This document shows positions 3,552-56,519 of a DNA stretch of 64,000 nucleotides, in pieces. The notes under the pieces were generated by a model, which worked only from the letters and a program-made list of their open reading frames with translations, made no database searches and had not been told where the DNA came from. The stretch spans positions 36,915,598-36,979,597 of the forward strand of contig NC_030385.2 in assembly GCF_001625215.2 (NCBI RefSeq), written 5' to 3'. Every line of letters begins with the position of its first letter. The first letter of the stretch is position 1. A program made the translations under genes and the position numbers. This DNA is from Daucus carota subsp. sativus (lineage: Eukaryota; Streptophyta; Magnoliopsida; Apiales; Apiaceae).

Positions 3552-3879
3552 ACTTGCTGACTTGCAAGCTCAAAAGTGCTTATTTATTCATATATGTATA
3601 AAGTAAGTCACTGTCAGCAATGAATTAGAAAGAGAATGAGCATTGAGATCTTTGATTTTGACTTGGGTGCTTACTGATTACTTCAAGTGTAGTGTGAAAT
3701 GGGTTTGATTGCTGACTTGCTGTAAAGAAAATCACATGGTGCTGGTAAGAAATTGAACAGAGTGATGCCCGTAGTGTCTCTGTTTTGGGGCCTTTTCTGA
3801 AATCTTTTCTGACATTACTGCATAACTACTGTTATGTAAATCAGTACACTGTAGATGAGATTTGGACAGTAATTTATTA

Positions 3880-4130
3880 CTCCCTCTGTCCCATTTAATT
3901 GTATACGTTTCTTTTTAACTGCTCGACACGCATGTCAATGCTCTTATAAAATATAGTTCCGTAACTTATTTTTGAGATTTTCTTTTTCTGTATAAAAATA
4001 TAACATCCAAACTTTAATTCAGAAGAAGAAAATTTTAAAAATAAATTACACAACTACACTTTACAGGAGCATTAAAGTCCGTGCCGCGTCCTCGTCCCCC
4101 AATGTATACTACTCAGGGGGACGGAGGGAG
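3880..4130. mobile_element. Stowaway-like MITE 1
   Basis: Ends are CTCCCTCTGTCCC and GGGACGGAGGGAG, flanked by TA on both sides (3878-3879, 4131-4132). The size is 251 bp and there is no coding capacity. TA duplication and these termini are the Tc1/mariner-derived Stowaway signature. It lies just upstream of the SKS gene. Confidence 0.88.
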
Positions 4131-4164
4131 TACTTAAAAAGAAGATTCAATTATGATGAAATTA

Positions 4165-5439: not shown

Positions 5440-8280
5440 TTAGGGATCAAATAGATTATCTCCAACATATCCAACAGCAGGATTTGCATCCATAGTTTCA
5501 AAAGCCTTCTGAAGCTGTTGCATCTTCTTAGCACGGAGAGTTTGTAGACCTTGCAATTTAATTTTGGCATCATCAATACGGATTTGCAAATCTTGTAATT
5601 GACTTTGGCCGTCATCATTATGACAGTCAACTGCGTGAAGCTTGGGGAGTGGGGACTGTGAAAACCGGAGCTGTTCTATGTTAATCAGACGGGTTACAAG
5701 CCAACTTACATTGAATCCCAACTTCTGCAAGTCAGCAAATACGTCCCTGTACTCTCCAATTATCTCAGGATCAACCTCAGTCACAGGGATTTTGATAAAG
5801 TCATTTACAGCGGTGCACAACATATTCAACTTCATTGTACAAAACTTCTTGTTTTTGGTGGCAAGGTGTTCAAAGGTTTCCGGGTACTTATTCATAATCT
5901 GATTGAGTAGACCTTCAAACTTGGAGTCGATTTCATTGCCTTGCCATAACCACAAATGAATATTCTCCCTGGAAGAGCTAACCTGATCATTGTGCGTCCC
6001 TTCAACAGGAATACCATCATTTACAACCATGTCATTGTCCACAGCTGTCATAGAAGCTGCCGGTGTACAAGGAATCATATTCTGGCGTGTTGTCGTCAAA
6101 ATGGTGGCAGTTGGAGAGCCACCAAATAAGTAGCTTCGTAGAGAACCAGATAAATTTTCTTCTTTAAATCCATGTGGTAGCATCACACACTTCAAGTTAC
6201 AGAATGGAGAAGGAGAACTTGCAAGAATGTCGGCAATCAAAGAAAGTGCTCTTATGGTTTCCAACTCTAGATGAAGAATCTTTGCACTACCAAGGCCTGA
6301 TAACATATGTGTAATCCGTCTAAAGTACACTTTCAATTTATTCCTCGAGGAGTTGGTATAGTTCAGCCAACCCCGTAATTTCAGATATACATTGTCCAAA
6401 TTAGAAGCTCCAAATGTGATTGGAAAGAAACCAACAGAAGTGAAATTGCTGAGCTTTGGTGACAAAACCATAATGTTACCCTCAATGGTATCAGTATCAC
6501 AGTAGCTCAGACTAGTCCTGATCTCCAGGTTTACCAATTCAGGACAAGTTATGAAAAAATCTTCATGCGCATACGCCATGTCTAGTGTGAGATTTTGTAG
6601 ACTAACAAATGCAGCAAGTGTGTCACTCGTATTTCCAGGAAATTTTACATCTTCGAGTCTTAAAGTTTTAAGAGCAGGAAGATTCCAAACTTTATCGGGC
6701 ATTTTGCACGTGTCCAGATAGAGAGCTGTCAAGTCAGGCAAACTTAAATATATAGCTGATTCTCGAAAATTCCAAAATGAAAGATGCAGAGTTCTCAAGG
6801 CAGGCAAAGAGGTCAAACATCGCACGGGTAAAATCTGATATACATGACCAGTATGTAGATGCCTCAAGTTTAGAGTAGTTAGAGAGGGTAAATCCCAACA
6901 ATCTGATTCGGACGCAAGATCTTCTAGCCTCATTCTCAATTCAAGACTTCGAATTGAACTAGAGCTGAAGTTATATAACTTGTAAGGTTTATGTTTGCGT
7001 CGAAAATGAACACTTAAGTGCTGAACATGATGCAAAATAGCATACTCAATAAACTTATCATTTAAGCCTGCAGGAAGATGCTTGAGCTCCAAACTAGAAA
7101 TCTGGGATTGATGGTTTCGGTGATTCAACACATGACGGGTAAAGTTAGTTGTGCTTTTAGCTGAACCCTGTTCATCCCATTTGAAGTTCAAGTAAGGAAG
7201 AGTAGTCCATACAAGCTTCCATCGTTTTGAGAGAATGCAGGTTTGAACTGCCAATTTAGTGTCTACAAACTTGAGAATCTGATGAATTACATCATCTGTC
7301 AATACGCTAATCCTGTCTTCGCCTTTATATTCAGTAGTGATTCTCAATTTCTTTTCATTCTTTGGCTGAAGATCCATTCACCGTCTTGGATGTAGGCCTA
7401 ATTTGATCAGGAAAAAAAAAAGCATTAGAGCAAGTCCAACAATGTCCTAGTTCAAGCCTTATATATAATATAAAAATTTATGTCCTAGTGATTTAGGACA
7501 TATTTAACTAACTTCAACTCCAACAATGTGCCTTATCCTCATTATATATTTAATATTTTATCATCAAAGGTGTTCTTTCATCATTAAAGGACAATATAAA
7601 GTAGAGAGAGAAAGAGAGTTTGTATAATAATTTATTATAGAATATAAGATAGGGCATTGAGAGAGGTGCCTTAAAAATAAGGATTGAAGAGGTCGTCGGT
7701 TGTTGTCCTAGACTCCTAGTAAAATAAGGCATCACTAGGACATTGTTGAATCAACTTTTTTATCAAATGCCCTAAATTTTAACCTAAGACATCATATAAG
7801 GCATCTCTTGGACTAGCTCATGCATTTGTCAGACCATTTAGACTGTGTTTAGATTAATGAATTCATTTCAAACACTGAAATTCAATTTCAGGAATCAAAA
7901 TCCCCATATTCAGTTACAACTCTTGTGTTCGAGAGAGATGAAATTTCAAATACAAATTTCCATAAAATACTTTATCCCAAAATTTTCAAAACATAATTCT
8001 AACAAAAATAATTGAACATTCACAATAAAACCATTTCTACCCTCAAATTTGTACTAGAATCAGCAAAACACACACATCTATACATATACATGACTATACT
8101 TGGGGGAAAAAAAGCCAGCAATAATTGTTGTTAAACAGGCTAATTGACATAGATAACTAACAAATTATAACTACAGAAATTGAATTAAAGCAACAAATAG
8201 AGAGATAGACCTTGAGCTCGTTATGCAGGCGCGAGTGAGTGAGAGAGAGGAGAGCGATGGACGAAATGAATTTCTTAACG
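5440..8280 (-). CDS. F-box / leucine-rich-repeat protein with a PEARLI-4-like C-terminal region
   Basis: One coding exon, 7377-5440, gives 645 aa. An F-box lies at about residues 20-65 (DRISVLTDDVIHQILKF, then CILSKRWKLVW). Leucine-rich repeats follow to about residue 420 (repeated SLPALRTLHLSF-type units). F-box proteins are substrate receptors of SCF ubiquitin ligases through SKP1. The FBD domain usual in this subfamily is not seen. Instead, after a polar linker, residues about 480-645 contain KYPETFEHLATKNKKF and LGFNVSWLVTRL, then a glutamine-rich coiled coil; this resembles the phospholipase-like PEARLI-4 C-terminus, a tentative match. A 5'-UTR intron is supported by an acceptor at 7398-7399 and a donor at 8209-8210; the upstream non-coding exon lies near 8211-8280. 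The transcription start is not known. The 5'-UTR intron carries a MITE. Confidence 0.85.
7428..7819. mobile_element. MITE in the 5'-UTR intron of the F-box gene
   Basis: Imperfect terminal inverted repeats GAGCAAGTCCAACAATG and (reverse complement of the right end) GAGCTAGTCCAAGAGATG bound about 392 bp of AT-rich, non-coding sequence rich in 'cctta' and 'aggaca' motifs. The ends look PIF/Harbinger- or Mutator-like; no clear target duplication was found. A similar left end (GAGCAAGTCCAATG) occurs at 18146 in the DUF538 intron. Confidence 0.5.
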
Positions 8281-38009: not shown

Positions 38010-38938
38010 ATTATTCAAATACTAAATTCACTAATACAAGACATAATTGCAACCGCAAATATACAGATCTTACACCGTGAAAATGAAAATTTAAAGAGCT
38101 CGTTACTAGATTTGAGAAAGTAGATTTAATGGGTAATATGAGAGTAAAATAAAAATTCTATCAGTTTACTATTTACAATTTTGAGATGAGAGTTATAAAT
38201 TATATCTAAAAGGCTATCAACAAAAAAAAAATTATAAGCAATTGTATAGACTGAGGTAAATGAAAAGGTGAAGGATACAAGAGAATGTGGGGTATTTATA
38301 GGTGGACAGTTGAGTCTCGGGGTAGAAGAGTCTTTTTCTATTTAATTCCTCTTTTTTTTTTTTAATACTCTACTTAGACTATTTTGTCTCATTTCTTCCC
38401 ACTTTGCCCTTCCTCCCTTCGTTTCTTTTTTTCTTTATTTCTATTTCCCTTTTTATTTAAAAATTCTTAAAACGAGATAATTTAATCATTTAAAATTTGA
38501 GAACAAGTAACAAACAAAAATTATTTGATTATCAAATCCTCATACCATCCTTTTGCTTGTTATCGAGTAAAATCACAAAAAAACACTAGATTCAAAAGTC
38601 AATTGCTTCTCTCCACAGGCGTGGTGGACAAAAATTTTACAGAAGAAATACACGGTTACAGACTTTTAGTGGTGAGAGCCAAGATGTAGGTGACTAGATA
38701 TATTTTTGTCGACTTCAATGTATATTATAGTTTCTGTTGCGTTATTCCAACAGTAGTTTCTGCCCCTTATAGAACTACCATTCATCATGGACTTTATTAC
38801 AAGCATGCCATTGATTTACTTGGACAGCAGTGTGACATGTGGCTGCCCCATGCCAAACCACAGCTGCATGATGTTTGGCGGCTTAATGTTGCAAAAGCTG
38901 GAACCATGTGCACGTAAAACAATAAAAAGATAGATACG
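38010..38938. other. Intergenic, left of the large Helitron
   Basis: AT-rich, pyrimidine-rich near 38350-38460. No gene is seen. Confidence 0.4.
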
Positions 38939-39261
38939 TCGTACATACTATATACTCATAGATAAAACTTTGTTTATTTAATTCATTTAAACAAAATATT
39001 CAGTTCTATTATACAGAGAAACTGCAAGACCAGGCTTGAGGCTTCCTCAAGAAGCTTCATTTCAAAACCCAGCAAGTACAATTAGCTGCTGTACGCCTGC
39101 AAATTTTTTAATACACCTACACTTTACAATTGAATTTTGAAATTAAGCTTTAAGATGAGTACGAAAGAAGCTTTAAACCACAGATGAAGTGATCCTAAAT
39201 TTCTTACACTTTTGAGGCCAAAAAAATTTCCACTGGCGATTGCTTGCTTGCTTGATCGACG

Positions 39262-42200
39262 ATGTCAAATGTATGCTTCAAACAATTTATGAGTTAATTT
39301 TGTTGTTCGGAGATGTGGACTTAACGTTTGTGTTAAATTTTCTTATTAGGATGAGAACACTCCCAAATCATGGCGCCTTTTTAGCTCCGAAGACATGATC
39401 CAAGGTTTGTTCTTGATGTCCGAAGATGTAGACTTTAGTTCTGTTTGTGGTTTTTTGTATTGTTCATGATGCAACATATGTTTCTTAGGATACAAACCTA
39501 AAAGTGCACGAAAGCGAAAAAATTCAGCAGAGAAAGAAAACATATCTGGAAACTCCGCAAGAAGATTTACATATCCTCTATCTGCTTTGTCACCTACTAA
39601 TCTTGGTATGATTTCTTTATAATGTTGCTATGATTTCTTTATAAACTTGGTAAGAAAATAATTTCTATAGATGGTTGTGTTTGTGTTATTTAACAATACC
39701 AAATTGTGCTTCTATGCTCATGCAGAGAGTAGTAGTTTAAATAGCAAACCACTGGAAGATGTCTCTCTTACAAGAAATCCATTGTCTAACATAACTAATG
39801 AAAAGGAGAGACATTTTGTTCAACGCAGAAAACTAGATTCACGATCTAATCATACTAATCTTGGTATGATTTCTTTATAATGTTTACAATAGTTTCCTAT
39901 ACTATTCTTCGCTTTCAAATTTATACATAGATATGTATGTGTTTGTGTTATCTAACAATACCAAATTGTTCAACATAAGCTCCTGCAGAGACGAGTAGTT
40001 TAAATAGCCAACCACCGGAAGATGTGTCTCTTACAAGAATTCCACTGTCTAACATAACTAATGAAAAGGAGAGCCCTTTCGTTCAACGCAGAAAATGGCT
40101 CTCAAGAGCTTCTAAAAATAATCTTGAAAGTACAACAAGGAATTTGTTTGATGATAGCTTTGCTAATCAAGAACCAAGCACCAAATACTTTGCAGATGAT
40201 GAAATTGGTACATTTTTTACTAAACCAAAAATAATATTACAGGAATTTTGTTCAGCTTTGTGTTTCCATTGTTTGCTGATGTTATTTTTTGTTGCCTACC
40301 CTCAGAGTGTTCAACAGTTCAGCACCCTGTTTTATCGGATGATTCGGACAGTGATTTCTCATGTGGTAAATATTAAATTACTGTCATACAAAATATACTT
40401 TCAATTTTTTCAGGCTTGGTACACTTTCTGACCATACATTGATTATCCAGGAGAATCCAGTAGTGATGATGACTATCCTTTTGGAATGGAACCACAATCT
40501 GAAAGTGGTGAGTGCATTTTCAAATTTTATAGACAAATGTAGTCAGTACAATCTATATACATTGACTATGTATAGAATGTGTACAATTTTCCAGATGCAG
40601 AACAGAATACAGCTTTTAAAACTTCAAGAGTCATACCAAATGATTATGCGAGCCTTGGTAGTCCTGAATCAATATGTTCAAAATGCAATTCACGTCTATG
40701 GAAAGAGGAACGGACCAACAAAAATGTTACAAAAGGTGCTCCAGTTTTCTCAATTTGCTGCAAGAAGGGTGATGTAAAGCTTCCACCTTCTCCTCAAACT
40801 CCTGCCTACTTAAAGTATTTGTACACTAACAAAGATACAGCAGCTGAATTTCAACGAAACATAAGGCTCTACAATGCCATGTTTGCATTTACTTCGAGTG
40901 GTGGCAATGTTGATCACTCTATCAACAATGGCCGTGGACCATATGTTTACAGACTCAATGGCCAGAACCACCATGTATTTGGACAGTTAATACCCGATGA
41001 TGGACAAGCTCCCAAGTACTGTCAGCTATACATTTACGATACAGCTAATGAAGTGAATAATCGCCTCCGTTGGGTTAGTGTTGCTGACCAGCAAGCAGTT
41101 GATACAGATGTGGTTCATGGATTGATACAAATGTTGGATCAGACCAATGAATTGGTGGCCAAGTTTCGGATGGCACGTGATCGATTTGAAAATTCAGACT
41201 TGGTTGATTTGAAGGTAGAGCTCAAAGTATGCAGAGCACAAAGTGGTAGAGAGAATCATATTTCCTCTTCTGACGAGGTAGCGGGTATAATGGTTGGTAG
41301 CAGTGACTGTACTATTGCTGACCGCGATATAATAGTTGAGCAGAAATTTGGTGGCTTGAAAAGAATATCATATATTCACCCTAAACTCATGGCTCTCCAA
41401 TACCCCCTACTTTTTCCCGACGGTGAGGATGGTTATCACAATAGGATACGGTTTCAGAGCGCAGATAAAGATTCAGACAAAGAACGTGACATGATATCAA
41501 TGAAGGATTATTACTCCTACAAATTCCAAGTGAGACAGAATGAAGGTGATCATCACATTATCTGTAATAATTTATGCACACTACAAATATAGTACATATT
41601 TGGATTTACTTATTAATATATTCATTTATGTTTTTTTGGACAGGAATAACTCCTAGATTAGGAGGGCGGCTTTTTCAACAGTATATGGTCGATGCATTCT
41701 CTACTATGGAGCAGACTCGGTTGTGGTGGTTTCGTACACACCAAACCATCCTCCGAAATGAATTGTACACCCATATCTGTGATTCTGTTAGGAATGGAGA
41801 TGGGAACTCATCCAATGTAGGTAAAGGAGTCATTTTGCCAGCTGGATATGTAGGTTCCAAGCGTTACATGCAACAGAATTTTCAGGATGCACTGGCTGTC
41901 TGTCGTCACATTGGACATCCTGATATTTTTTTGACCATGACTTGCAATTCCATGTGGGATGAGATTCAGAGGATGATGGCTTATCTACCTGGCTGTCTTT
42001 CTGCAAACAGCCCCGATATAATATCCAGAGTGTTCCGGTTGAAGCTGGAACAGCTAACAAATGATATTAAAAAAAAGTCACATTTTGGGAGATGCGTTGG
42101 AGGTAATCCAATTTGCATTTTTTATGTTTGATATAGTAATTATATACCAGTAATGAAATGAACATTACTCACCAAGTTATTCATTTTATTGCAGTTATGT

Positions 42201-45200
42201 ATGTGGTGGAGTTTCAAAAGCGCGGCCTACCCCACGTTCATATGTTAATTTGGCTTGATGGTCCTTCTAAGAAATTCTTAAAAGAAAATGTAGACAAGTT
42301 TGTTTCAGCAGAGATTCCAGATCCTGAAGTTGATCCTGATGGATACGCTGCTGTCAAAGCTTATATGATGCATGGTCCATGCGGCTTACAAAATCCAAAA
42401 TCTCCTTGCATGAAGAATTTTAAATGTATACGCCATTTTCCGAAAAAGTAAGCTTCTCTAAATCACTTCACCGCCCACATTTCTGTGAATTACAAACTAC
42501 ATGTACTATATTACTTTGATTGGTAATTGATTAAATTTTCAACTTTCTGCAAACAGGTATTGCGCAAGAACAGTATTCGATGACAGTGGCTTCCCACTGT
42601 ATATGCGGCGCAAGCAAAATGTTAAAGTCCATGTCCACAAAGTTGATCTGGATAATCAGTGGGTGGTCCCGTTCAATCGGGATCTATTAGTGAAATACCA
42701 GTGTCATATGAACATTGAGATTTGCTGCCATGCTCGGAGTATAAAGTACCTCTTCAAATACTGTCTCAAGGGACATGACACTGCAACTGTGGAAATTACT
42801 GGCCGACGGAAGCGAAAACAAAATGAGAGCACTGACCAGCCTGTAGATGAGATTCAAGCATACTTTGACGGCCGGTATGTTTGTGGTGCTGAGGCGGCGT
42901 ACAGAATTTTTGGCTTTCCTATACATCACAGAACATTGTCTGTGGAACGCTTGCCATTCCATTTGCCAGGTCAGAAGAACTGCACTTTTCGTGCCAACGA
43001 ATCTCTCGAGAAAGTGGTGGAGCGCGAGAAGGAAAGGCTTAGTAAGTTGGAAGCTTTTTTCATGTTGAACCAGGTTGATGTGAAGGCTAGATGTTACACC
43101 TATGACCAAATACCCCAGCACTATGTTTGGAATGACACTCAAAGAAAATGGACTCCAAGGAAGAGAGGCAACCAAATAGGTCGCTTATCTTATACACATC
43201 ATAGCAGTGGTGAGGTTTGGTACTTGCGTATGCTACTCACCAAAGTTCAAGGTCCTACATCATTTGAAAGTTTAAGAACTGTCAATGGAGTGCTCTGCCA
43301 TTCTTTCCGTGATGCATGTAAGGAATATGGATTGTTGGATGATGACAAAGAGTGGCATGATGTGCTAGACCAGTGTGCAGCTGGCGGATTGCCTCCTCAG
43401 ATTCGCCAACTGTTTGTCCACATTATAGTTAATTGCAAGGTCACCGACATTGCAAGTTTGTGGAATAATCACTGGAAACAAATGGTGGATGACATTTTGT
43501 TGAAGAGGCGTCTGCTAAGTGAGAATCAGAATCTCATCCTTAATGATTTCCAGCTACAGTTCTATGCCCTTGCAGGTAAAAATTGTAATTTATTTTGTTA
43601 GTCCAATTTATGTATTTTCTTTGGTTAATATTTGTGTCAAATTACATGAAGTACAAAATTTATTAATTTCACCTCACTGTGCAGAAATAGATGATTTGCT
43701 AAGAGCTATTGGAAAGAGTCTCAAGAATTACTCTCAGTTGCCACAACCACCAGCAAGCTATCTCCATCAGGGGACCAATAACTTGATTATTGAAGAAACT
43801 AGCTACAACCTTGCTGAAATGAAAGCTGAGCACGAAAAACTAATTGCAAACTGCAACGAAGAGCAAATTAATGTTTATAGAGCTGTGTTAGATTCTGTTC
43901 AGGGTAATCAAGGTGGATTATTTTTCCTTTATGGGAGTGGTGGTTGTGGGAAAACCTATGTATGGAGGACTTTGATCGCCAAATTACGGTCTGAGGGTCA
44001 GATTGTTTTGCCGGTGGCCTCCTCTGGGATTGCAGCTACTCTTCTCCCCGGTGGCCGGACAGCTCATTCGCGGTTCAAGATACCCATAGTTCTGGATGAA
44101 TTCTCTCTTTGCAACATTGGACACAATTCAGATATAGCTGAGCTTATTAAGGTCACGAAACTCATCATTTGGGACGAAGCGCCTATGCAACATAGGTACG
44201 CTTTTGAATGTTTGGATCGCTCGCTTAGAGATATTATGAAATCTGTTGATCCTTCAAGAGCAAATCTGCCGTTTGGAGGAATTACAGTCCTCCTAGGTGG
44301 AGATTTCAGGCAAATTTTACCTGTGATCACGCAAGGAGAAAGAGGTGAGATTGTGTCTGCCTGCATTACTAGATCCAGGCTGTGGTCAATTTGTAAAATT
44401 TTTTTGCTAACCAGGAATATGCGGCTTAACCAAGGAAACAGTGCAGAAGAAGTTGAAGAATTACGTCGGTTTGCAAAGTGGATTTTAGATGCTGGTGATG
44501 GCAAGCTTCCACCAGCAGACCCGACTGAATTCCCAAATGCAAAAGAAAATGATATTGTCATACCAGCTCAGTTCTGTGATCTTAGTATAGGCAATTCGGT
44601 TGAGAACATGATCTCAGCTACTTTCCCAGATTTTAGCACCAACTGCAAAGATCCAAAGTACTTGAGCGAAAGAGCCATATTAACTCCTACAAATCAAACT
44701 GTAAGTCATCTTAATTCACTGATCGTAGACAAAATGCCAGGCGATTCTGTTTCATACTATAGCGTTGACACTGTTGAAGAGTTTGGCGGTACCGAAGATG
44801 ATTTCAACTCAGCTTTCCCGATTGAATATCTAAATTCTATCAACCTTCCTGGAATGCCACCACATGATTTGAAGTTAAAGGTCGGAGTTGTAGTTATGTT
44901 GATGAGGAATTTAAACCAAACACTTGGTTTATGTAATGGAACAAGAATGATCATCACAAAATGTCTTAAATTCTGTGTGGAGTGTGAAGTAATTTGTGGT
45001 TCATTCGCCGGGACACGACATTTTATTCCAAGAATGGAATTATGTCCCAGTGATACTCGCATGCCTTACAAGTTGATTAGAAAGCAGATGCCGTTACAAA
45101 TATGCTATGCGATGACTATCAACAAAGCACAAGGTCAGTCACTTGAGACTGTTGGATTGTTCCTTCCCAAAGCAGTTTTTACGCATGGCCAATTTTATGT

Positions 45201-45327
45201 TGCAATTAGCCGAGTTACATCTCCACATGGATTACGAATTTTCATTGATGATGATAGTGGACAGCCTACTAACGTCACGCAGAATGTGGTGTACCAAGAA
45301 ATTTTCTACTCTTTACCAAAGACCTAG
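39262..45327 (+). CDS. Helitron Rep/helicase (HUH endonuclease + PIF1-like helicase)
   Basis: Twelve exons: 39262-39270, 39350-39404, 39489-39605, 39726-39863, 39989-40207, 40306-40365, 40451-40507, 40595-41545, 41644-42102, 42195-42447, 42557-43575 and 43685-45327. They sum to 4980 nt, 1659 aa, with every junction in phase. The N-terminal 200 residues are variable. A conserved Helitron N-terminal region follows (DYASLGSPESICSKC, then LYNAMFAFTSSGGNVDHSIN). The HUH nuclease has GLPHVHMLIWL (histidines about 702 and 704) and two candidate catalytic tyrosines in YLFKY (about 837 and 841). The PIF1-type superfamily-1 helicase has Walker A GSGGCGKT (about 1196-1203), IIWDEAPM, LLGGDFRQILPV and the C-terminal TINKAQGQSLETV and FYVAISRV. 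It should nick, unwind and rejoin Helitron ends. The tiny first exon (ATG TCA AAT, donor GTATGC) is the least certain part. Confidence 0.92.
39726..40207 (+). repeat. Tandem exon duplication in the Rep/helicase gene
   Basis: Exons at 39726-39863 and 39989-40207 begin with nearly the same sequence, coding SSLNS, EDVSLTR, PLSNITNEKE and FVQRR in both. The preceding introns also match (GTATGATTTCTTTATAATG starts and GTGTTTGTGTTAT followed by TAACAATACCAAATTGT). Intron plus exon were therefore duplicated as a unit of about 0.26 kb. Confidence 0.9.
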
Positions 45328-46140
45328 AGGAGGAAGGCATAGTTTCAGAACACTGCTACAACTGATGGTGATATCAGTTCTTTTGGAAAATGAAATACTC
45401 CACTCTAGCTGCTTATGCTGTCTTTGATACACTTCAGAGCAGCCAAGTTTTTTGTTATAATTTCAAAGCAGCTATGACTCTGTCTGTTTAAATATTATCA
45501 ACTGTACTGAATATGTTTGTATTGTCATTTGGCTACCTATTTAATCTACTCTGACTATTAATTTATGTAATTAGTTTGTACTCTGACTATTAATTTACTC
45601 TGCCTCCTTTTGTTTACTCTTGCACATGAGTAGTAAGTTGATGGAATGCCAGTGAGATATCAGCTGCTTTGTTATATATGTACACACCACAGGCTGTAAA
45701 TTTTAAAATACCTATATAAGTTATGCAGCTTAGTGTAATATAAGTTATGTCAATACCAAAACGAAACAGATCTTTTCATCATATAAGTGTTCACAACTTT
45801 CTTTGGACATGTACAACATACCTATTCAATTTTCAAGTACAAATCAACAAAATTTACTTTGTTAACAACTGAAAAACTGGCCTTCACATTTTCTATACTG
45901 ATAAACATAGGTCATTACAGAGCAATGTGGCAAATTACAAATTGTCTACTACAGTCAGACCACACATGGTGCATCCCAAAATATAATAGTAATAAACATA
46001 GGTCATTACAGAGCAATGCTTTTAGATTAAAGCTTAGGATAAATCAACAGAAATACTACTTCAAACCAAATGGTTCTTTTCCATAAACCGCAGACCAAAA
46101 TGCTAAACTTTAAAACTGATGTTTAGGCCGCAGAGATATA
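45328..46140. other. Spacer between convergent Rep/helicase and B3 genes
   Basis: Holds the 3' UTR of Rep/helicase. Sequence from about 45473 to 45660 reappears at the end of the first RPA gene (53996-54180). A 27-bp direct repeat (ATAAACATAGGTCATTACAG core) lies at 45901-45927 and 45992-46018. Confidence 0.7.
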
Positions 46141-48610
46141 CTAAGCTACCACATCAACTTGAAAAGTGTTTTCACCAACATAATGAAACTCAATTGTTTC
46201 TCCACCCACAAATTCATTTGCTTTGGTAAAATAACTCCAGCCTTTCCCAAACCGGCAAATGTTTCCTCTGCGCAGAACACATACATAGCAAGTGCGTGCC
46301 TCAGATATTAGCCTGATTGCTGTCGTTTTGGTCCAGTTCTTATATATGGAGTACAAGATACGAGGACAATACTGCATAAAAATTCAGCAATATTATATAA
46401 CTTCAGAAATGCTTAATTAGTCCATTTAATACTAAACATATATAAGGAACTTACCGCTCCATGATCTCTTTTGTCCACATGAGATTTTTTCATGGTGACA
46501 CGAAAAGACATGTTCTGTGGATTTCCATCTCCAAATTCATTTCCTGTATTATACATTAAGGCAAAATTAAATTGCCAAAAAAAAAATTAGAGAGAAAGTT
46601 AAATATTATACAGCTGCAGTAACATGATTTTACCTTCATTGTTACCATCATCGCCAAGTTCCAAGTTCTGAGCATCTGATGTACCAAACAATATCAGATT
46701 TGTTAAATTCAGCACAAACATGTAAATTCATCCAAGCAAGTAAATTCGAAATTACCTGCAATACCTCCATCAATATCCATTGCCAAGTCTGGCTCACCTT
46801 CTAAAACAAAAGAATCAAAATGTATTATAGTCATGTGGAAGTATTTATGGAATTATATTAAAATAAATTGAAATTCATTCTCAAAGACTACCTTCACCAC
46901 TGCTGTCAGACAAAATAATTATTTCTTCTTCACGAATTCCTCCAGTTTTTTTAGTAGCCGCATCATGCCTGGAGTTCAATTTGTATTCCATACCAGTTGC
47001 TTTGAACAATGACACAGCAAAGGTTGAATCACTCAAGAAATGAAATACCATCACATCATTCAGCTTAATACTATAGGTGTCAACCAATGTCTTTAACCCA
47101 TGAAGGAAACTCTGGGAACGAGAAAAATTGACAGCTACAGAACGACCATCCCCCATTATGAGATTCACAGTTTCCTCCAAAACTCCACCGTTCATCTCCA
47201 TGAAAACCCGGGGGATTTCCTACACATTTTGGTACTGTTTAGGTTTCACCAAAATAATACAAACAATTAAATATAAAACATAAAATCAGAAGGTATACCA
47301 TTTGACCAGCGTAAAGAACAACATCGTTAACTATTTTAAACCAGTTCGTCACCTTGCTTGCATGTCCAATACCTGATAAGTGCAATGTTAATAAACTTTA
47401 CAACGGGCCAGTGTTAAATACATTGATAAAGTCTGGAAAAGACATTGACAATTTTTTACCTTTTTCATTACACTTAGTTAGTAAATCAGGTTCATAAACA
47501 CAGACCCTGAATTTTCCAGGTGGCCCGCTTAACATGAATGCGCAAATGTCACCTTCCTTCAACCTGCTGGCCCTCGCAAAATCATACCATGTTCTGTCCA
47601 TATAGGCCTTTCCATTATCCCATTTCAAATTCACAACCCAACTCATGTTTTTGAAAAAAAGAGTCACAGATTTCATTTCCTCTAAAAGACCTAGCTGCTT
47701 ACAAGCATACCTATTTAGAATCTGTTAATAAAGAAAAAAAAATTAAGTGAACTCACAGCTCTTCTGTAACAATTTAAACATTGAAAATTATAAAATTAAC
47801 CTTACCTTAGTGTGATCCTTCTTAAGGAGATGACTACTACTTATAAGAAGATCATAAACATGGAGACCACTGTTATAGACGTTAGAGAACATAGTGCCAC
47901 ATAGTTTGTCCACTTCAATGTCTGAGAAATTGAAAAAACTTCTATCCATGGAAGAAAGAGTCTCAGATTTATCAGTCACAGTGTAATTAACCTCCACACC
48001 ATAAGGATTGTAAATTTGTAAATTGAAACTCGGTCCACCAATATACTCCATAGCAATCAAATAATAAGGCTTAATACAATAATAAAGCATCATCTTTTCT
48101 AAGCCCTCGATCCAGTTCCTTTCAACACTATATTTACCATTCCACACCACTCCTGGAGCCACATGCAACAAAAGCCTCTCTGGAATAGGCCCACTATTTT
48201 CAATAGGAAACTCTTTCGGTAAAATCTAAAGAACAATAAATTACTTAAATAAGTTCAGATTATAACTATCACTCGATATTACTAATAAAACATAAAAGAA
48301 TGATTCTAACCAGTATCCCAGCAATGTAGTCTGAACCAAAGTTTGGACACACAAATGTACTTCCTCTTTCGCCCCATTTCATATTAAAATTTACTACATA
48401 AACAATCCCAGATAGTTTTCCGTCTTAAGAAATAATCGACCACAACTCATGCATAGCAAACTATGAATTAAAGAAACATACCTTGGCTGCTTTTGATCAA
48501 AGACCTGAAGAACAGAACAAAAAGAAAGTTAAATATGGTATGTAACCAATGTACAAACTGGATTTCAGACTTAGAACACAGAGCACAAACCTCGAAGAAG
48601 AACACGCCAT
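46141..48610 (-). CDS. Multi-B3-domain protein inside the Helitron
   Basis: Eleven minus-strand exons splice in frame to 548 aa: 48610-48591, 48504-48482, 48423-48311, 48225-47806, 47721-47460, 47372-47299, 47219-46892, 46800-46756, 46675-46634, 46543-46455 and 46371-46141. Four regions resemble the plant B3 DNA-binding fold of the REM type: residues about 54-130 (LPKEF, SGPIPERLLLH, then FNLQIYNPYGVE), 208-273 (KSVTLFFKNMSWVVNLKWDN, ASRLKEGDICAFML), 305-375 (IPRVFMEMNGG, LNDVMVFHFLSDSTFAVSLF) and 454-547 (GKGWSYFTKANEFVGGETIE). An acidic linker (EEEIIILSDSSGEGE) separates the third and fourth. B3 domains bind DNA in plant transcription factors, so a nuclear role is inferred. It is antisense to the transposition genes and divergent from the first RPA gene. 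It may be a captured host gene or a Helitron-specific accessory gene. The short first two exons are the least secure. Confidence 0.75.
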
Positions 48611-48753
48611 GCAGAGCTTGCAAATAGTAACTGCCAGTACAAATCAAGGTGCAAGATAAGTAGAAACTGAAGAGTTTTATTACCAAGGCAATTATGACTA
48701 TGTACCTGCAGTAGACAAAAACAAGTCAAATCAATTGGGTTGTGGCTCGATAC

Positions 48754-51180
48754 AAAGTAACCGTGGTTGATCACAGTAATCACAGTTACAGTAAATATAT
48801 TATTTTCTAATGTTAATATAGTGTTTATATATCTTAGCTTACCAACCCACAATTTATGCCACTGAGTGACTAAATTACGTTCATGTATATTGTAATTTCT
48901 ACAGAAATTCACCATTACAACTCTAAATTAAATTAAACTGTATTTTTTACAATACAAATTGAAAACTTTTTAACTAAAACGATTATTTTAAACCATAGTT
49001 TTTTTTTAATAAAAACTAAACTAAATTTAATCTAAATTCTCAGCTAATCCGTGCAAATATAGTATTAGTAACATTTACAAACAAATTTATGCCACCAACT
49101 GACTAAAATACGTTGATCTTAAATGAAATTTTTACAAACCTTCACTATTACATGTCAAAATAAAATTAAACCATATTATTTACTATACAAATTCCTATTA
49201 CTATAACAATGACAAAGAAGACCCGTGACGAAGAACCATGAATAGACTGAATTCCTATTACTATAACAATTATTTTAAACCATATAATTTAATATACAAA
49301 TTAATATTTGAAATAGTGTTGGACAAAAGAATAAATGCTTACATGTCTTCATATATTACAAATAAACAACGTCATTTATTAAATGTAAGGTTAGTTTCAA
49401 ATATGGCTACACCTGTAACAAGTACTAAACAACTCTAAAAGTTTCAAGTTTATTTTTTTAAGTACAACAACTGAGACAAATTTTTTTTAAAGATATTAGA
49501 ACTATACGTAAAATTAACCGTGGTTGATCACAGTAATCACAGTTACAGTAAATATATTATTTTTTAATATCCCAAAGTATTGGAAAAAAACAAAATATTT
49601 TATAAAATAAAAAAGATCTAATTAAGAAAAACACTATTATTCCTAAATTTCAGATGGAGTACATACACTTTTCTATATTGAAAAGTTTATTTGACATTGT
49701 ACAAATATAAATGTTAATATAGTGTTTATATACCTTAGCTTACCAACCCACAATTTATGCCACTGAGTGACTAAATTACGTTCATGTATATTGTAATTTG
49801 TACAGAAATTCACCATTAAAACTCTAAATTAAATTCAACTGTATTTTTTACAATACAAATTGAAATTTTTTTAACTAAAACGATTATTTTAAACCATAGT
49901 TTTTTTTAATAAAAACTAAACTAAATTTAATCTAAATTCTCAGCTAATCCGTGCAAATATAGTATTAATAACATTTACAAACAAATTTATGCCACCAACT
50001 GACTAAAATACGTTGATCTTAAATGAAATTTTTACAAACCTTCACTATTACATGTCAAAATAAAATTAAACCATATTATTTACTATACAAATTCCTATTA
50101 CTATAACAATGACAAAGAAGACCCGTGACGAAGAACCATGAATAGACTGGATTCCTATTACTATAACAATTATTTTAAACCATATAATTTAATATAAAAA
50201 TTAATTTTTTAAATAGTGTTGGACAAAAGACTAAATGCTTACCTGTCTTCATATATTACAAGTAAACAACGTCATTTATTAAATGTAAGGTTACTTTCAA
50301 ATATGGGTACACCTGTAACAAATACTAAACAACTCTAAAAGTTTCAAGTTCATTTTTTTAAGTACAACAACTGAGACCAAAAAAAAATTAATGATATTAG
50401 AACTATATGTAAAATTATACCGACAACCAACATTTATTCTGTTCAAAAAAGTATCATAAATATTTATAGCTCAACAATATACTCTTTTAAAAGTTAGATG
50501 AACGACACACACCTTAAATGTGAACTATAAACTGTGTAATATTATTTATGAAACACATTTTTCACCCTAAATTTATGAAACAAAATATTTTATAAAATAA
50601 TATTGATTTAATTAAGAAAAACACTATTTTTTCCCTAAATTTTATTTTACATCAACAGATTCAAATGTTAATGTATAAAATTATATACCTTAGCTTACCA
50701 ACCAACACTTTATGCGTCTGAGTGACTAAATTACGTTCATCTAAAATGTAATTTGTACAGGCATTCACCATTACAACTCTAAAATAAATTATACTGTATT
50801 TTTCACGATACAAATTTAAAAAATTTTAACTCTAACAATTCATATTTAAAACTTTTTAAATCTAACGATAAAGATTATACAAAATTTTGGCTAAATTCTT
50901 AGCTATTCCCTCCAAATACAATATCAATAAAATTTACCAACAAATTTATGCCACCAACTGATTACAATACGTTGATCTTAAATGAAATTTTTACAAATCT
51001 TCACTATTACATGTCAAAATTAAATTAAACCATATTATGTACGATACAAATTAAAATTCCTATTAATATAACAATTATTTTAAACCATATAATTTAATAT
51101 ACAAATTAAAAATTTTAAAGGTATTCAGACAAAAGAATGAATGCTAACCTGTCTTCATAAATTAATTTTAAATAACAAAA
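48754..51180. repeat. Triplicated repeat in the spacer between the B3 and RPA genes
   Basis: A unit containing TTAGCTTACCAACC, TTTATGCC, GAGTGACTAAATTACGTTCA, CTTCACTATTACATGTCAAA and TTAAACCATAT occurs at about 48812-49503, 49709-50403 and 50664-51178. The first two copies are nearly identical over several hundred bases, including CAAAGAAGACCCGTGACGAA; the third is diverged and shorter. AACCGTGGTTGATCACAGTA is also repeated (48760 and 49517). The spacer should hold the promoters of both divergent genes. Confidence 0.88.
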
Positions 51181-51589
51181 AACATAACTTACTGAAGAAT
51201 AGCAGGTGCCGCCACTGACAAAATGTAAGGGCTACAACCGGATGCTGTACACATAGTTCAACTGTAATCAAATCCAAACTAGATCAGCTACTACAGTTAA
51301 CATAATGGAGCCGCGTACTCAGCACACTAAAGTAAATCTATGCCCAAATTAACATACAGCTGTAAACATCATATCTTACAAAATACTTGATCAGAACACA
51401 GTCCATTATTACAAATCTCAGAAAACATATAACTTTCATTACGCCCTACCTTTCAACACAGATACTAATCTGCAAACTCACCCGCCTTCAATTCAGGTGA
51501 GTAAATGACGCACCTAATCTTTCAATTATGATTTCAACCATCAATGTGGTATATTAATTGAGTTATTTCTTTGTTCGAATCTTTTCAGA

Positions 51590-54016
51590 ATGGAGCTTAA
51601 CAAGTTCGAATCAATCAAGAAGTTGAACACAGAGCGCTTCGACTGGAAGTGTAGACTTCGATTACAGTCGATGTGGAAAGGACTAAACAGAGAAACAAAA
51701 GAGTTCTGGGGCATCAATATGACACTCATCGATGATTCGGTTAATTACTTTAAAACTTTCAGCTTCAAACTGTTTTCTTTTTAGACAGCACAGTTTAATA
51801 AATTTAGTAAATATGTCGTTTTTTATAGAACCACAGGATTCATGGATTTGCAAGTTCTAAATACTGTAAAGGACTTTTCGAACAATTGAAGGAAGGAAAT
51901 ATTTATATTCTCACAAATTTCAAAGTTAAGGATTATGTTGGCGACGAAACCTACCGTCCGGTTCGAAACAGAAAGCATATCTACTTCACAACACACACAA
52001 AAATAGAGACAGATTCGGGTGTTGGTTTGAAAATTGAGAAGTTTGCTGTGGACCTGTTCTACATGGGAGAAATTAAAAAACTAGCTGAGGACAACCGTTT
52101 CTTAATAGGTATAATAACTGTATATTTGTTTTTAATTTTAAATGGGAGCTAATTTAACCAAAAAAATTTAAAGATATGGTAGGAAGGATACAAAATGTTC
52201 GAACGAACATCAAGTCAATCAAAAATGATGTCGAGAAGGTTATTACAAAGTTTGACCTCACTGATGGAAGGTATGTTCAAATCTACTGACCATTTAATAA
52301 CAAATAAATTTAGTTTAGCATTAATGTTATTCTGAAATGATTTGTGTAGGTACACTGTTCCTGTGACTCTATTTGATGATTTTGGAGTTCAGTTTGCAGA
52401 AGAGCTGGAAGATTGTAAACAAACAGAGATTTATATTATCATTGCTGCTGCAAAAGTTGGCCTCTATGAGGGTAAGATATTTTATAGTCACTTGCTATTA
52501 GCATTACAAAATTTAACTGTTAGAGAAATTTTAAACAGGTATAGCTAATCTAACAAATTATCCGGCAACAAGAATTTACATCAATCCTACACACTACAGC
52601 ATCGGAGAGCTTAAAGCCAAGTAAAAAATTACTACCTTTTATGAATAAAGTCTAAATTTTTCAATTTACCAAGAAATTAATTGGTTCAAATGACTATGCA
52701 GAATGTTGGAAACAATTGAAGAAACGGTTTCATCACCACCGCAGGAAATTACAGAGTTAAAAACTCTTACTATCAAAGATATTAAAGCAATGACTCCAGA
52801 TTCCACAGAGGTAATATGTTTTGCACTTTCTATTAACAGGAGACAAAAATGAATAATGCTCTGTCTTTTTTCCAATCAACAGTGCAGAGTTAAGTGCCAA
52901 CTTAAAGTAACTAAGGTCGAAGAGCAGTCATCTTGGTTTTATGCTGTATGCACAAAATGTCCAAAAGAAATATCACGAGTCGATGGGGTTTTTAAATGCG
53001 AGGACTGTAACAGAATTATTCCATACCCTGACAAAAGGTTAGAATATCATTACTATTATACATAAACTAGAAAATACAGATTTGAAAGAAAATATCTTTT
53101 GTATTAGTTTATTTATATATATGTATATTGCAGATTCCGTATATGCACATTATGCAGCGACAACACAGGTAGCATTGCAGTAATTTTCCTGGACCAAGAA
53201 GTTACTCGGATTATCGAGAAAACTGTGTTTGATATAGAAGTGGATGCTATTCAGGTTTGCATGTATTAAAGTTTGTAATATCATAAGCAAAAGTGCTCAC
53301 TAACTTCAAAGCAGTCACTAACCATCTTCTTTAAAGGAAAATACCGAGGGGAAATTTCCAGCAGTTCTCAAGACATTTGAGAAGAAAGTTTATACCATCA
53401 CTCTAAACATTACAGAGAACAATCTCAAAAAAGGATCAATGGTGTATGAGGCGGATGAGATTTTTGACAAAATTGAAAGCAGTGCAAACTTTGATCCATC
53501 GACAAACACAGATACTCAAATGGTTGAGGCAGCAACTGTAGACGTAAGTTGAAGTTTTACAGATCATATAAAAATAATTATTCAAGGCTGAGGTCTTCAA
53601 TAAATAATTATTCAAGCCCGAAATTTTACGCTTTTTAATTAAATATTCAACAGCTGAAAGATGACGACCTCAGCACACCAACAACTGGAATTTCTTCTAC
53701 AAAAACAAGGCCAAGGGTTGATATTGAGCCGGTGGCATTTGATCCAAAAGAAGATACACCAGCCAAGCTCAACAAAAAGGATAAGAAGAAAAAGGTCTTT
53801 ATGCCCAATATTTTTAGTGCAGTCTACTTCAGTAGTAACTTCTGTCATTTAATTCCTTACCTCTGTCATCCAATTTCAGGAGTAACTGCTTTGTACTGGA
53901 CGTCAACCACTACTTTTGCCAATGAAGAAGAATTTGAAACTTCGGTCTCTGATACAATTCAGAGTTTCCAAGACTTTTGTTATAATCTCTCTGAATCTAT
54001 GACTCTGTCTGTTTAA
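51590..54016 (+). CDS. Helitron-encoded RPA70-like single-stranded DNA-binding protein A
   Basis: Ten exons: 51590-51739, 51829-52108, 52174-52270, 52350-52471, 52539-52620, 52702-52810, 52883-53037, 53134-53254, 53337-53543 and 53654-54016; 1686 nt, 561 aa, every junction in phase. The order fits RPA large subunit: OB fold A (residues 1-143, with RIHGFASSKYC and GNIYILTNFKVKDY), OB fold B (about 144-275, with RYTVPVTLFDDFGVQFAE) and C-terminal OB fold with a zinc ribbon, C303-x2-C306 and C319-x2-C322 (CTKCPKE ... CEDC). A lysine-rich NKKDKKKK precedes the end. RPA-like proteins are a known partner of plant Helitron Rep/helicase and should coat displaced single strands. The last 25 codons come from sequence also found downstream of Rep/helicase; an alternative splice after KKKK would end the protein earlier. 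Confidence 0.87.
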
Positions 54017-54296
54017 ATATTCTAAACTGTGGTGAATATGTTTGTACTATTTTTTGGCGTCCAGGAACCTAACTATTTAATCTACTCGGACTATTGTTTT
54101 ATATAATTGCATACCTATATAGCTGCTTCCTACCACATCAGTATTTAATCTTGCACAGGAGTAGTAAGTTGAGGTATTTAATATGAACTTTAATTGCATC
54201 AGATGAAATTTCACAGATTAGGTTATCTCTATATATACCACATGCAATAAACTGTGAAAAATATACCAAAACACATCAACTGCATCCAAAGGCAAA
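54017..54296. other. Spacer between the two RPA genes
   Basis: Short 280-bp spacer holding the 3' UTR of RPA A and the likely promoter of RPA B. Its first half repeats sequence seen downstream of Rep/helicase (45473-45660). Confidence 0.75.
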
Positions 54297-56330
54297 ATGT
54301 CTTCACGCTATGCAGCTCTTGCAAACCTCAAAACAGGAGTTGATAACTACAAGATAAAAGTTCGAGTCATACGCAAATGGAGAGGAGCGACGAAAGCTGG
54401 AGAAGAATTCAAAAACTTCAACATCCTGCTGCTAGACAACAAGGTTAGTACAATCAAACTGCAATTAAATTTGTATGATTTAACAAATGAAGTTGTGCTC
54501 TAAGTACCAGAACAGATTACTACTAAATTGCATATTTTGCAGAACAATACAATACATGCTTTCGTACCAACAACCTGTGCCTATGACTTGGAAAGGCAGA
54601 TCATAGTTGGAAGCATCAATATTATTACAGGTTTTATTGTACAGGACTACAAAAAAACAGACAAGTTTAGGGTTGTGCGGAGGGATAATCAGCTTATTTT
54701 CACAACAGACACAAAGATCCAGCAAATCGAAGAAACTGCAGCACAAATTGCAACTGAGATCTTTGACTTTTATGATCTCAGTGAACTTAAGAACTACATG
54801 ACTGAAACAACTTATGTCATTGGTAAGAAAGCTTTAGATTTAAAATATTACAGACCTACTTATTAAACTGGGAACACTGATTATATAAATCTTAAATTAC
54901 AGATGTTGTCGGTGTTATTAAGGATCATAAGATTCTTCTTGAACAAATTACGAATAGGCATGGAATTCAACAGGAACAAGCTAAGTTTGTTATATCTGAT
55001 GGAAGGTTAGTGTAAATCCTGAAGCTAAAAAAAGTGGTTATGCTATTTATAATGATTGACATTTCTTTGTAATGTTAAACAGAACAAATGTGAATGTAAC
55101 GTTTTGGGATAAATATGCACAAGTTTTTGTGGAAGCTATTTGGAAAAAAATGGAGACTCCAGTCATTATTATTCTTGCAGGATGCAGAGTGCAAATGTGG
55201 AGCAGTATGAAACATTTAGAATCCTCTTTCGGACTAATCATTCTATATTAATATATCTGCTTTCCAACATTCAGTCTATGGACTAACTCACTCATTATTT
55301 CTGTGTTCAACTTGCAGATGCTCCAAATGTCACACATGTTGCACCAACAACATTCTACTTAAATCTTAACCATCACAGTGTCAACCAGCTGAGGAGGATG
55401 TAAGAAACAGTTTGAGTCACAGCTGATGCAGACATTATCAGTCAAAAAATTGAAAAATAATTATCCAATTCCATATGTAGGTTAGCTATACCTGATTTCT
55501 CAAAGAAAGTAATGGCAATGGAGAAGAAGAAGAAAGCTGAGCTGCTTACTGTTGAAGCCATAAAATCATTGGACAAAGATTCGGTTGAGGTTAAAAAAAT
55601 TACTAGCTTATATAAAATTCCTCATTTTTAAGATACTTATATGTGTAAATGGCAGGCAGAAGTTATGGCACATGTAACCATCATGCACGTCGACGACCAA
55701 CAGAAATGGTTCTTCAAAATTTGCACATCATGCGATTTTGAAGTCGATTTTGTGAATGAATTCTACAGTTGCGCAAGATGCCAAAGAATAGTACCATATC
55801 CAGAAATAAGGTAAACAAAATCATATGTAAAGATTGTATTTTATGTCATATCTCTAAACGGTTTCTGTTAAATAGATTTAGATTGGTTGTCATTGCTTTG
55901 GATGCTACCGGTTCTCTTCAAATCTTATTGGAAGACAGAGAGGTTAGAAGTTTGCTTGGGAAAAGAGCAAGGCAGTTAATTCCACAGGTAAAAAATTAAT
56001 TGGTAGTGAAGAAAATAATTAAAATCAAAATTTGTTTCAATTCTAATATTACCACAGGAAGCAACTGAAGAGTACTTCCCAGAAAGTTTCAAAATGCTTG
56101 CAACACAAACTTTTACAATAAAAATGGAGATCCATGCAGCAAATGTCTTGAAACAATCAAATCTCTACTGGGCTACAAATATATGCCATGGATTCAAGTT
56201 GGAGGAGATGGACACAGAAATGGAACAACAACCACAAAGCCAAAGCATCAACACACAAGCCACTACATCAACAGCACATCTACCAGGAATGTCTGACCTG
56301 AACTGCAATTCATCAGCAGTAACCAATTAG
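54297..56330 (+). CDS. Helitron-encoded RPA70-like single-stranded DNA-binding protein B
   Basis: Nine exons: 54297-54443, 54543-54822, 54903-55005, 55083-55204, 55318-55399, 55481-55589, 55656-55810, 55876-55987 and 56058-56330; 1383 nt, 460 aa, all in phase. Domain order matches RPA A: OB fold A (VRVIRKWRGATKAG, NIITGFIVQDYKKTDKFRVV), OB fold B (NVNVTFWDKYAQVFVEAIW) and a zinc ribbon C304-x2-C307, C320-x2-C323. Exon sizes 280, 122, 82, 109 and 155 are identical to those of RPA A and in the same phases, so the two arose from one gene by duplication, though the proteins have diverged strongly. The C-terminus is glutamine/threonine-rich and lacks the lysine cluster of RPA A. The stop lies about 190 bases before the Helitron terminus. 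Confidence 0.87.
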
Positions 56331-56501
56331 GCTTCAAGCTTAATAAATTTTCATTCTCGGAATATGTAATGCATAAACTATGACAATATTCGAACTTTTT
56401 CTCTGTAACTCATGTAGTCGACTAAGTATGCATCACAATATCTAATCGTCTTAAATTCATTTTGTCTATGGCAAATCTTATTAACTCCAAAACCCAAGCA
56501 A

Positions 56502-56519
56502 CGCGGGCACAAATACTAG
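56502..56519 (+). repeat. 3' terminus of the large Helitron
   Basis: CGCGGGCACAAATACTAG ends in CTAG, followed by T. The upstream palindrome (56493-56507) is only partly paired, weaker than that of the non-autonomous element at 8921-8939. Confidence 0.72.

Follow-up and report, generated by a model that had tools for sequence, protein, structure and literature searches.

A structurally complete carrot Helitron with a probably inherited gene for a REM-like B3 protein

Helitrons begin with TC, end with CTRR (CTAG in the plant elements considered here), lack terminal inverted repeats and insert next to a T without duplicating the target, and a hairpin near the 3' end is typical of them, not obligatory. 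A plant type with RepHel and RPA genes was reportedly described by Kapitonov and Jurka. A REM-type protein is defined as one that has several B3 domains and none of the companion domains ARF, RAV or LAV, and the B3 proteins and the VANC proteins of VANDAL elements are different protein families. For this poorly understood class of transposons, complete plant elements whose ends are known make useful tools. The present analysis concerns one Helitron in a stretch of 64,000 nucleotides of Daucus carota subsp. sativus (contig NC_030385.2, positions 36,915,598 to 36,979,597 of the forward strand), which is part of the contig denoted C5 here and is referred to as the window.

Helitrons of plants that carry RepHel and RPA genes are an established kind, as in the work on Mothra (PMC4683698). 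The window element agrees with them in its 5' TC, 3' CTAG, T-adjacent insertion, Rep and Pif1-like helicase and RPA-like genes, and differs from them in a nearly absent hairpin and in a recurrent gene on the opposite strand with several B3 domains. From its structure and conservation, the element is very probably a Helitron of complete structure whose family was active recently, and its B3 gene an ancestral component that has been kept.

Extent, insertion and genes of the element

The last 189 bases of the element as first read were used as the query in a search of the genome (441 Mb, 11 contigs), in which five copies were found at 97–100% identity, namely the window copy and the copies denoted C1a, C1b, C2 and C9. 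All similarity among the copies ends at once beyond the CTAG at 56519, which is present in all five, as an earlier note on this DNA had read it. That note had placed the left end at 38939, which is ruled out, as the alignment of left flanks that it had proposed shows all five copies to begin with TCAATG at 38715, 224 bp further out. Because the five copies have both ends in common, the element is defined as 38715–56519, a length of 17,805 bp (Table 1). At other loci, the left end has two additional partial matches, of 75% and 84%. Terminal inverted repeats were not found, as none of the 24 listed inverted repeats of at least 20 nt joins both ends. The hairpin typical of the 3' end is nearly absent (z of 0.12 in the window copy and 0.46 in C1b), and the five copies with this same 3' end inserted nevertheless.

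The base 3' of the element is T in all five copies. The base 5' of it is A in three copies, G in a fourth and, in the window copy, T. The joined flanks of three of the five copies were compared with empty sites. Those of C1a align without gaps, over 300/300 bases at 98%, to a copia-type sequence (so named by eye) that is uninterrupted, and those of C9 match three neighbouring HSP70-like copies (named by eye) over 300/300 bases at 92–96%. The joined flanks of the window copy run without gaps across the junction into all five fetched copies of a diverged dispersed repeat at 71–73%, with small gaps a few bases off the junction; a close empty site for this copy was not found, the matches being diverged copies of the host repeat only. 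Because the joined flanks of the three copies match uninterrupted sites, the insertion was precise, without target duplication and adjoining a T. At C9:33353699-33360233, the 6.5-kb deletion derivative splits an HSP70-like frame (by eye), which is otherwise open over more than 200 codons to its left and about 300 codons to its right.

Table 1. Coordinates of the Helitron and its features, numbered from the first base of the window
Feature	Coordinates	Strand	Description
Whole Helitron	38715..56519	+	both ends common to five copies, flanks unlike
5' terminus TCAATGTATATTATAG	38715..38730	+	identical in 4/5 copies; one substitution in C1b
Rep/helicase gene	39262..45327	+	12 exons, 4980 nt CDS, all introns GT-AG, one terminal stop
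Rep/helicase exons 1-6	39262-39270, 39350-39404, 39489-39605, 39726-39863, 39989-40207, 40306-40365	+	
Rep/helicase exons 7-12	40451-40507, 40595-41545, 41644-42102, 42195-42447, 42557-43575, 43685-45327	+	
Rep motifs	42233-42244; 42747-42761	+	HVH(M); YLFKY
Helicase motifs	43933-43956; 44173-44184	+	GSGGCGKT; DEAP
B3 gene	46141..48382	-	9 exons, 1563 nt CDS, open, convergent with Rep/helicase
B3 exons	48311-48382, 47806-48225, 47460-47721, 47299-47372, 46892-47219, 46756-46800, 46634-46675, 46455-46543, 46141-46371	-	
Noncoding tandem array	48754..51164	.	unit ~900-960 bp, between B3 and RPA1 gene starts
RPA-like gene 1	51590..53885	+	11 exons, 1470 nt CDS; to 54016, 1686 nt with last intron kept
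RPA-like 1 exons 1-6	51590-51739, 51829-52108, 52174-52270, 52350-52471, 52539-52620, 52702-52810	+	
RPA-like 1 exons 7-11	52883-53037, 53134-53254, 53337-53543, 53654-53794, 53880-53885	+	
RPA-like gene 2	54297..56330	+	9 exons, 1383 nt CDS
RPA-like 2 exons	54297-54443, 54543-54822, 54903-55005, 55083-55204, 55318-55399, 55481-55589, 55656-55810, 55876-55987, 56058-56330	+	
3' terminus ending CTAG	56490..56519	+	hairpin cut down to 3-bp stem CCC...GGG

All four gene models were rebuilt at the DNA level with GT-AG junctions, and the models, the Pfam matches and the motifs confirm the earlier reading of a Helitron with four spliced open genes. The lengths read earlier for the Rep/helicase gene and RPA-like gene 2 were reproduced, and all the Rep and helicase motifs named with them were located. 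PIF1 (1.6e-86) and Helitron_like_N (3.3e-52) lie in one spliced Rep/helicase frame, with a helicase of Pif1 type (superfamily 1) fused to a Rep domain that bears an HUH motif (HVH) and tyrosines (YLFKY), and Rep_fac-A_C and DUF223 are found in both RPA-like proteins. The 1686 nt given earlier for RPA-like gene 1 requires that the last intron be kept; this model is disfavoured, as its extra tail falls in the repeat 53945–54058, whose partner at 45420–45533 follows the Rep stop untranslated, and the 1470-nt model is preferred for this reason. The longer stretches 45420–45572 and 53945–54108, which follow the Rep and RPA1 genes, share this repeat at about 80% identity, which suggests duplicated gene ends within the element. 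The earlier note had held that frameshifts, or a CTAG that is not a shared end, would speak against its reading; at the DNA level, neither was found. As judged from the sequence, the coding capacity is structurally intact and the termini are shared, which supports the identity of the element as a Helitron, possibly an autonomous one.

The B3 frame is open as first read, with 1563 nt instead of the 1647 nt reported then, which were not reproduced. The protein matches the Pfam B3 model at 6.6e-25 (87.4 bits for the whole protein) in three stretches, and no companion Pfam domain lies above its cut-off. The first, N-terminal domain is not recognised by the Pfam model and resembles the third; when the domains are scored singly, only the second passes the cut-off. 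With multiple B3 domains and no ARF, RAV or LAV companion, the protein is of the REM type, from whose members it differs in being encoded by a transposon. Its best match of solved structure is VRN1, which is weak (E 0.0053), and the predicted structure of the exon with the first B3 domain (pLDDT 40.8) was not used.

B3 genes along the Helitron lineage

The association of the B3 gene with related Helitrons, which went beyond the first reading, was analysed for the 80 best-scoring of 335 helicase candidates, some of them partial. B3 loci were collected with two queries, the window B3 (83 of 313 candidates scored) and the B3 of a relative with 76% helicase identity (96 of 303), and merged into 61 loci. 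Matches to the profile PF02362 were left out of the count. A check of 21 rows of the second query, namely the omitted ones and two of those used, placed every one of them within a B3 locus that had been counted. Because all the searches scored only part of the candidates, the numbers given below are minimum figures.

A reversed B3 gene lies within 15 kb downstream of 32 of the 80 helicase loci, and of 29 of 77 when the three copies of the window family are excluded. The other three placements within 15 kb (downstream on the same strand, upstream on the opposite strand and upstream on the same strand) were found at 0/80 loci each, where 0.08 would be expected by chance for each placement class. 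With the window B3 query alone, 26 of the 80 helicases have a B3 neighbour, which is downstream and reversed in 26/26 cases. All ten helicases with at least 80% identity have a B3 gene within 15 kb, including 7/7 outside the window family. In the 76% relative (C1:36822001-36842000), the order of Rep, reversed B3, RPA1 and RPA2 is as in the window, perhaps with a third RPA-like gene. At each of the helicase loci C2:31358044 and C3:41237890 there are two B3 genes, both in reversed orientation.

The identity of B3 follows that of the helicase (rho 0.88, n=23), where the 26 loci of the first query minus the three window-family copies were used with the best B3 identity per locus. Between families, the dN/dS of B3 in six comparisons is 0.32, 0.26, 0.28, 0.23, 0.22 and 0.33; these values are rough because the BLAST pieces compared include some intron read-through. 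The dN/dS of the helicase in the closest compared relative is 0.078. A tree of B3 domains was built from short alignments and covered seven Helitron families, including that of the window, along with 16 domains of presumed host origin taken from five clusters. In it, the four Helitron B3 domains each cluster with their counterparts, apart from the presumed host domains; the support, in the order of domains 1 to 4, is 0.85, 0.99, 0.90 and 0.99.

Several points weigh against an inherited and selectively kept B3 gene. The presence of B3 within 15 kb thins with helicase identity, from 20/38 at 70–79% to 2/26 at 60–69% and 0/6 below 60%, which may reflect a loss of sensitivity or a real absence; the profile search gives a B3 match close to one helicase of 54% (C4:12519974). 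At a limit of 25 kb, one same-strand case accompanies the 34 of 80 helicases with an opposite-strand B3, and for 21 of the 61 B3 loci no listed helicase is found within 25 kb. By eye, some of these 21 are near further Helitron_like_N places. Several of the 80 helicase loci are near-identical to one another, so that they are not independent. The dS in the comparisons between families is 1.07–3.0 and intron read-through enters them, and a relative of 79% (L035) has a stop in the first B3 domain. Among the three recent long copies, the B3 pN/pS of 1.21, 0.60 and 0.75 on 16–22 changes is nearly that of an unconstrained gene, unlike the values of Rep (0.27–0.42), RPA1 (0.28–0.43) and RPA2 (0.05–0.39).

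Within this genome, the sequence comparisons nevertheless strongly support B3 as an ancestral, selectively kept component of the Helitron lineage. On the simplest reading, an ancestral Helitron would have acquired a REM-like gene, which was then inherited with the element while evolving fast. Among open-access papers, judged by their titles and the beginnings of their abstracts, none was found that appears to describe B3 genes as part of Helitrons, Repbase and subscription journals lying outside the search. What appears to be new is B3 as an inherited, recurrent part of many related elements and not a stray captured gene. The recurrence of such a DNA-binding gene suggests activities of some Helitrons beyond copying themselves, which may include control over how they are expressed or targeted.

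Possible role of the B3 protein

In the established Helitron model, Rep would nick the element, the Pif1-type helicase would unwind it, and the RPA-like proteins would coat the displaced strand in rolling-circle transposition. The REM-like B3 protein would bind noncoding DNA of its own element, for which the repeat-rich sequence that separates the starts of the B3 and RPA1 genes is a candidate, and would keep the element expressed against RNA-directed silencing, as VANC does for VANDAL.

VANC proteins are the anti-silencing proteins of VANDAL elements (PMC10398659), and REM-GDE1 recruits Pol IV, with host REM proteins directing Pol IV to DNA targets (PMC12270911). The analogy with VANC and the guidance of Pol IV by host REM proteins are the reasons for favouring a silencing-related role of the B3 protein. 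VANDAL elements and the window Helitron share an extra DNA-binding gene in a plant transposon, adjoining noncoding tandem repeats and fast divergence. The transposon class differs, and the likeness is one of layout alone. The tandem-array region is about 1.9 kb long in C1b against 2.7 kb in the window copy, which corresponds to about one unit fewer and parallels the targets of VANC, which likewise expand and contract. REM-GDE1 is likewise a REM-type B3 protein placed at silencing targets; it differs in being encoded by the host and in promoting silencing.

Two results weigh against this role. The repeat region and that of the relative share only AT-rich 10-mers, a comparison made without a null model, and the window shows no enrichment of the REM/Pol IV motif, with 14 occurrences against 17.5 expected. 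By analogy, binding to its own noncoding DNA and countering of silencing are tentatively proposed for the B3 protein, at somewhat below even chances, and the observations hint that it aids survival of the transposon. The wider proposal that the REM-like B3 of this lineage is a sequence-specific silencing antagonist, which would turn the host's targeting of Pol IV by REM proteins against itself, is speculative and rather unlikely. If it is true, Helitrons would have arrived at such an antagonist by convergence with the VANC proteins of VANDAL elements. Silencing evasion by Helitrons could be tested on a defined protein, a candidate region for its binding and a natural series of about thirty related loci.

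An accessory role in transposition, where the protein would serve end recognition or target choice and not the control of expression, is a possible though doubtful explanation. DNA binding is established for B3 domains, and the gene lies next to those for Rep and RPA, together with which it is inherited. However, C2 and C9 moved without B3, the helicase and most of RPA-like 1, so that any role of B3 in transposition would act in trans, and no B3 was found near many of the more distant helicases.

Recent activity and the remaining alternatives

The window element could also be an undamaged-looking but inactive relic, which is unlikely. Its noncoding sequence has diverged by 3.2–3.4% from the two other long copies, C1a and C1b (3.2–4.0% among all three), which is roughly one to three million years at plant substitution rates, and its 3' hairpin is weak. 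On the other hand, all four genes are open in the window copy only, whereas both long siblings are broken: in C1a, Rep contains a stop and the frame of RPA-like 1 is shifted by 2 bases, and in C1b none of the four genes is free of lesions. The earlier claim that open frames are unusual in plant Helitrons holds less well here, as 60 of the 80 best-scoring helicase matches are free of an internal stop. The constraint on the Rep and RPA genes also argues against a relic, as do the derivatives C2 and C9.

C2 and C9 have a common internal deletion, which joins window position 42361 to 53647. Their chromosomes and flanks differ, and an alignment of 513 + 6028 bases between the two contains 0 mismatches and 1 gap. 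They are nearly identical at two sites, which shows that the window family moved recently. At a substitution rate near 7e-9 per site and year, this near-identity places their separation at most some tens of thousands of years ago. They were presumably mobilised in trans, and another Helitron family may have been the source of the proteins. By the common 3' region, they are nearest to C1b (1.43%) and 2.23% from the window copy.

That B3 is an ordinary host gene, captured and carried as a passenger, is very improbable: gene capture is well known for Helitrons and B3 is nearly neutral among the three recent copies, but the uniform placement and reversal, the parallel of B3 and helicase identities, the dN/dS between families, the separation from the sampled host domains and the retained introns all argue against it.

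Within the derivative at C2:41431482-41443431, about 5.4 kb of additional sequence is inserted, and the match on its two sides overlaps by 5 bases, which is compatible with a later nested transposon and its target duplication. Copies related to a 255-bp repeat at window 3878–4132 are inserted near the 5' ends of C2 and C9. Elsewhere in the window, the minus strand at 5440–7377 carries an open frame of 645 aa, which by eye resembles an F-box/leucine-rich-repeat protein.

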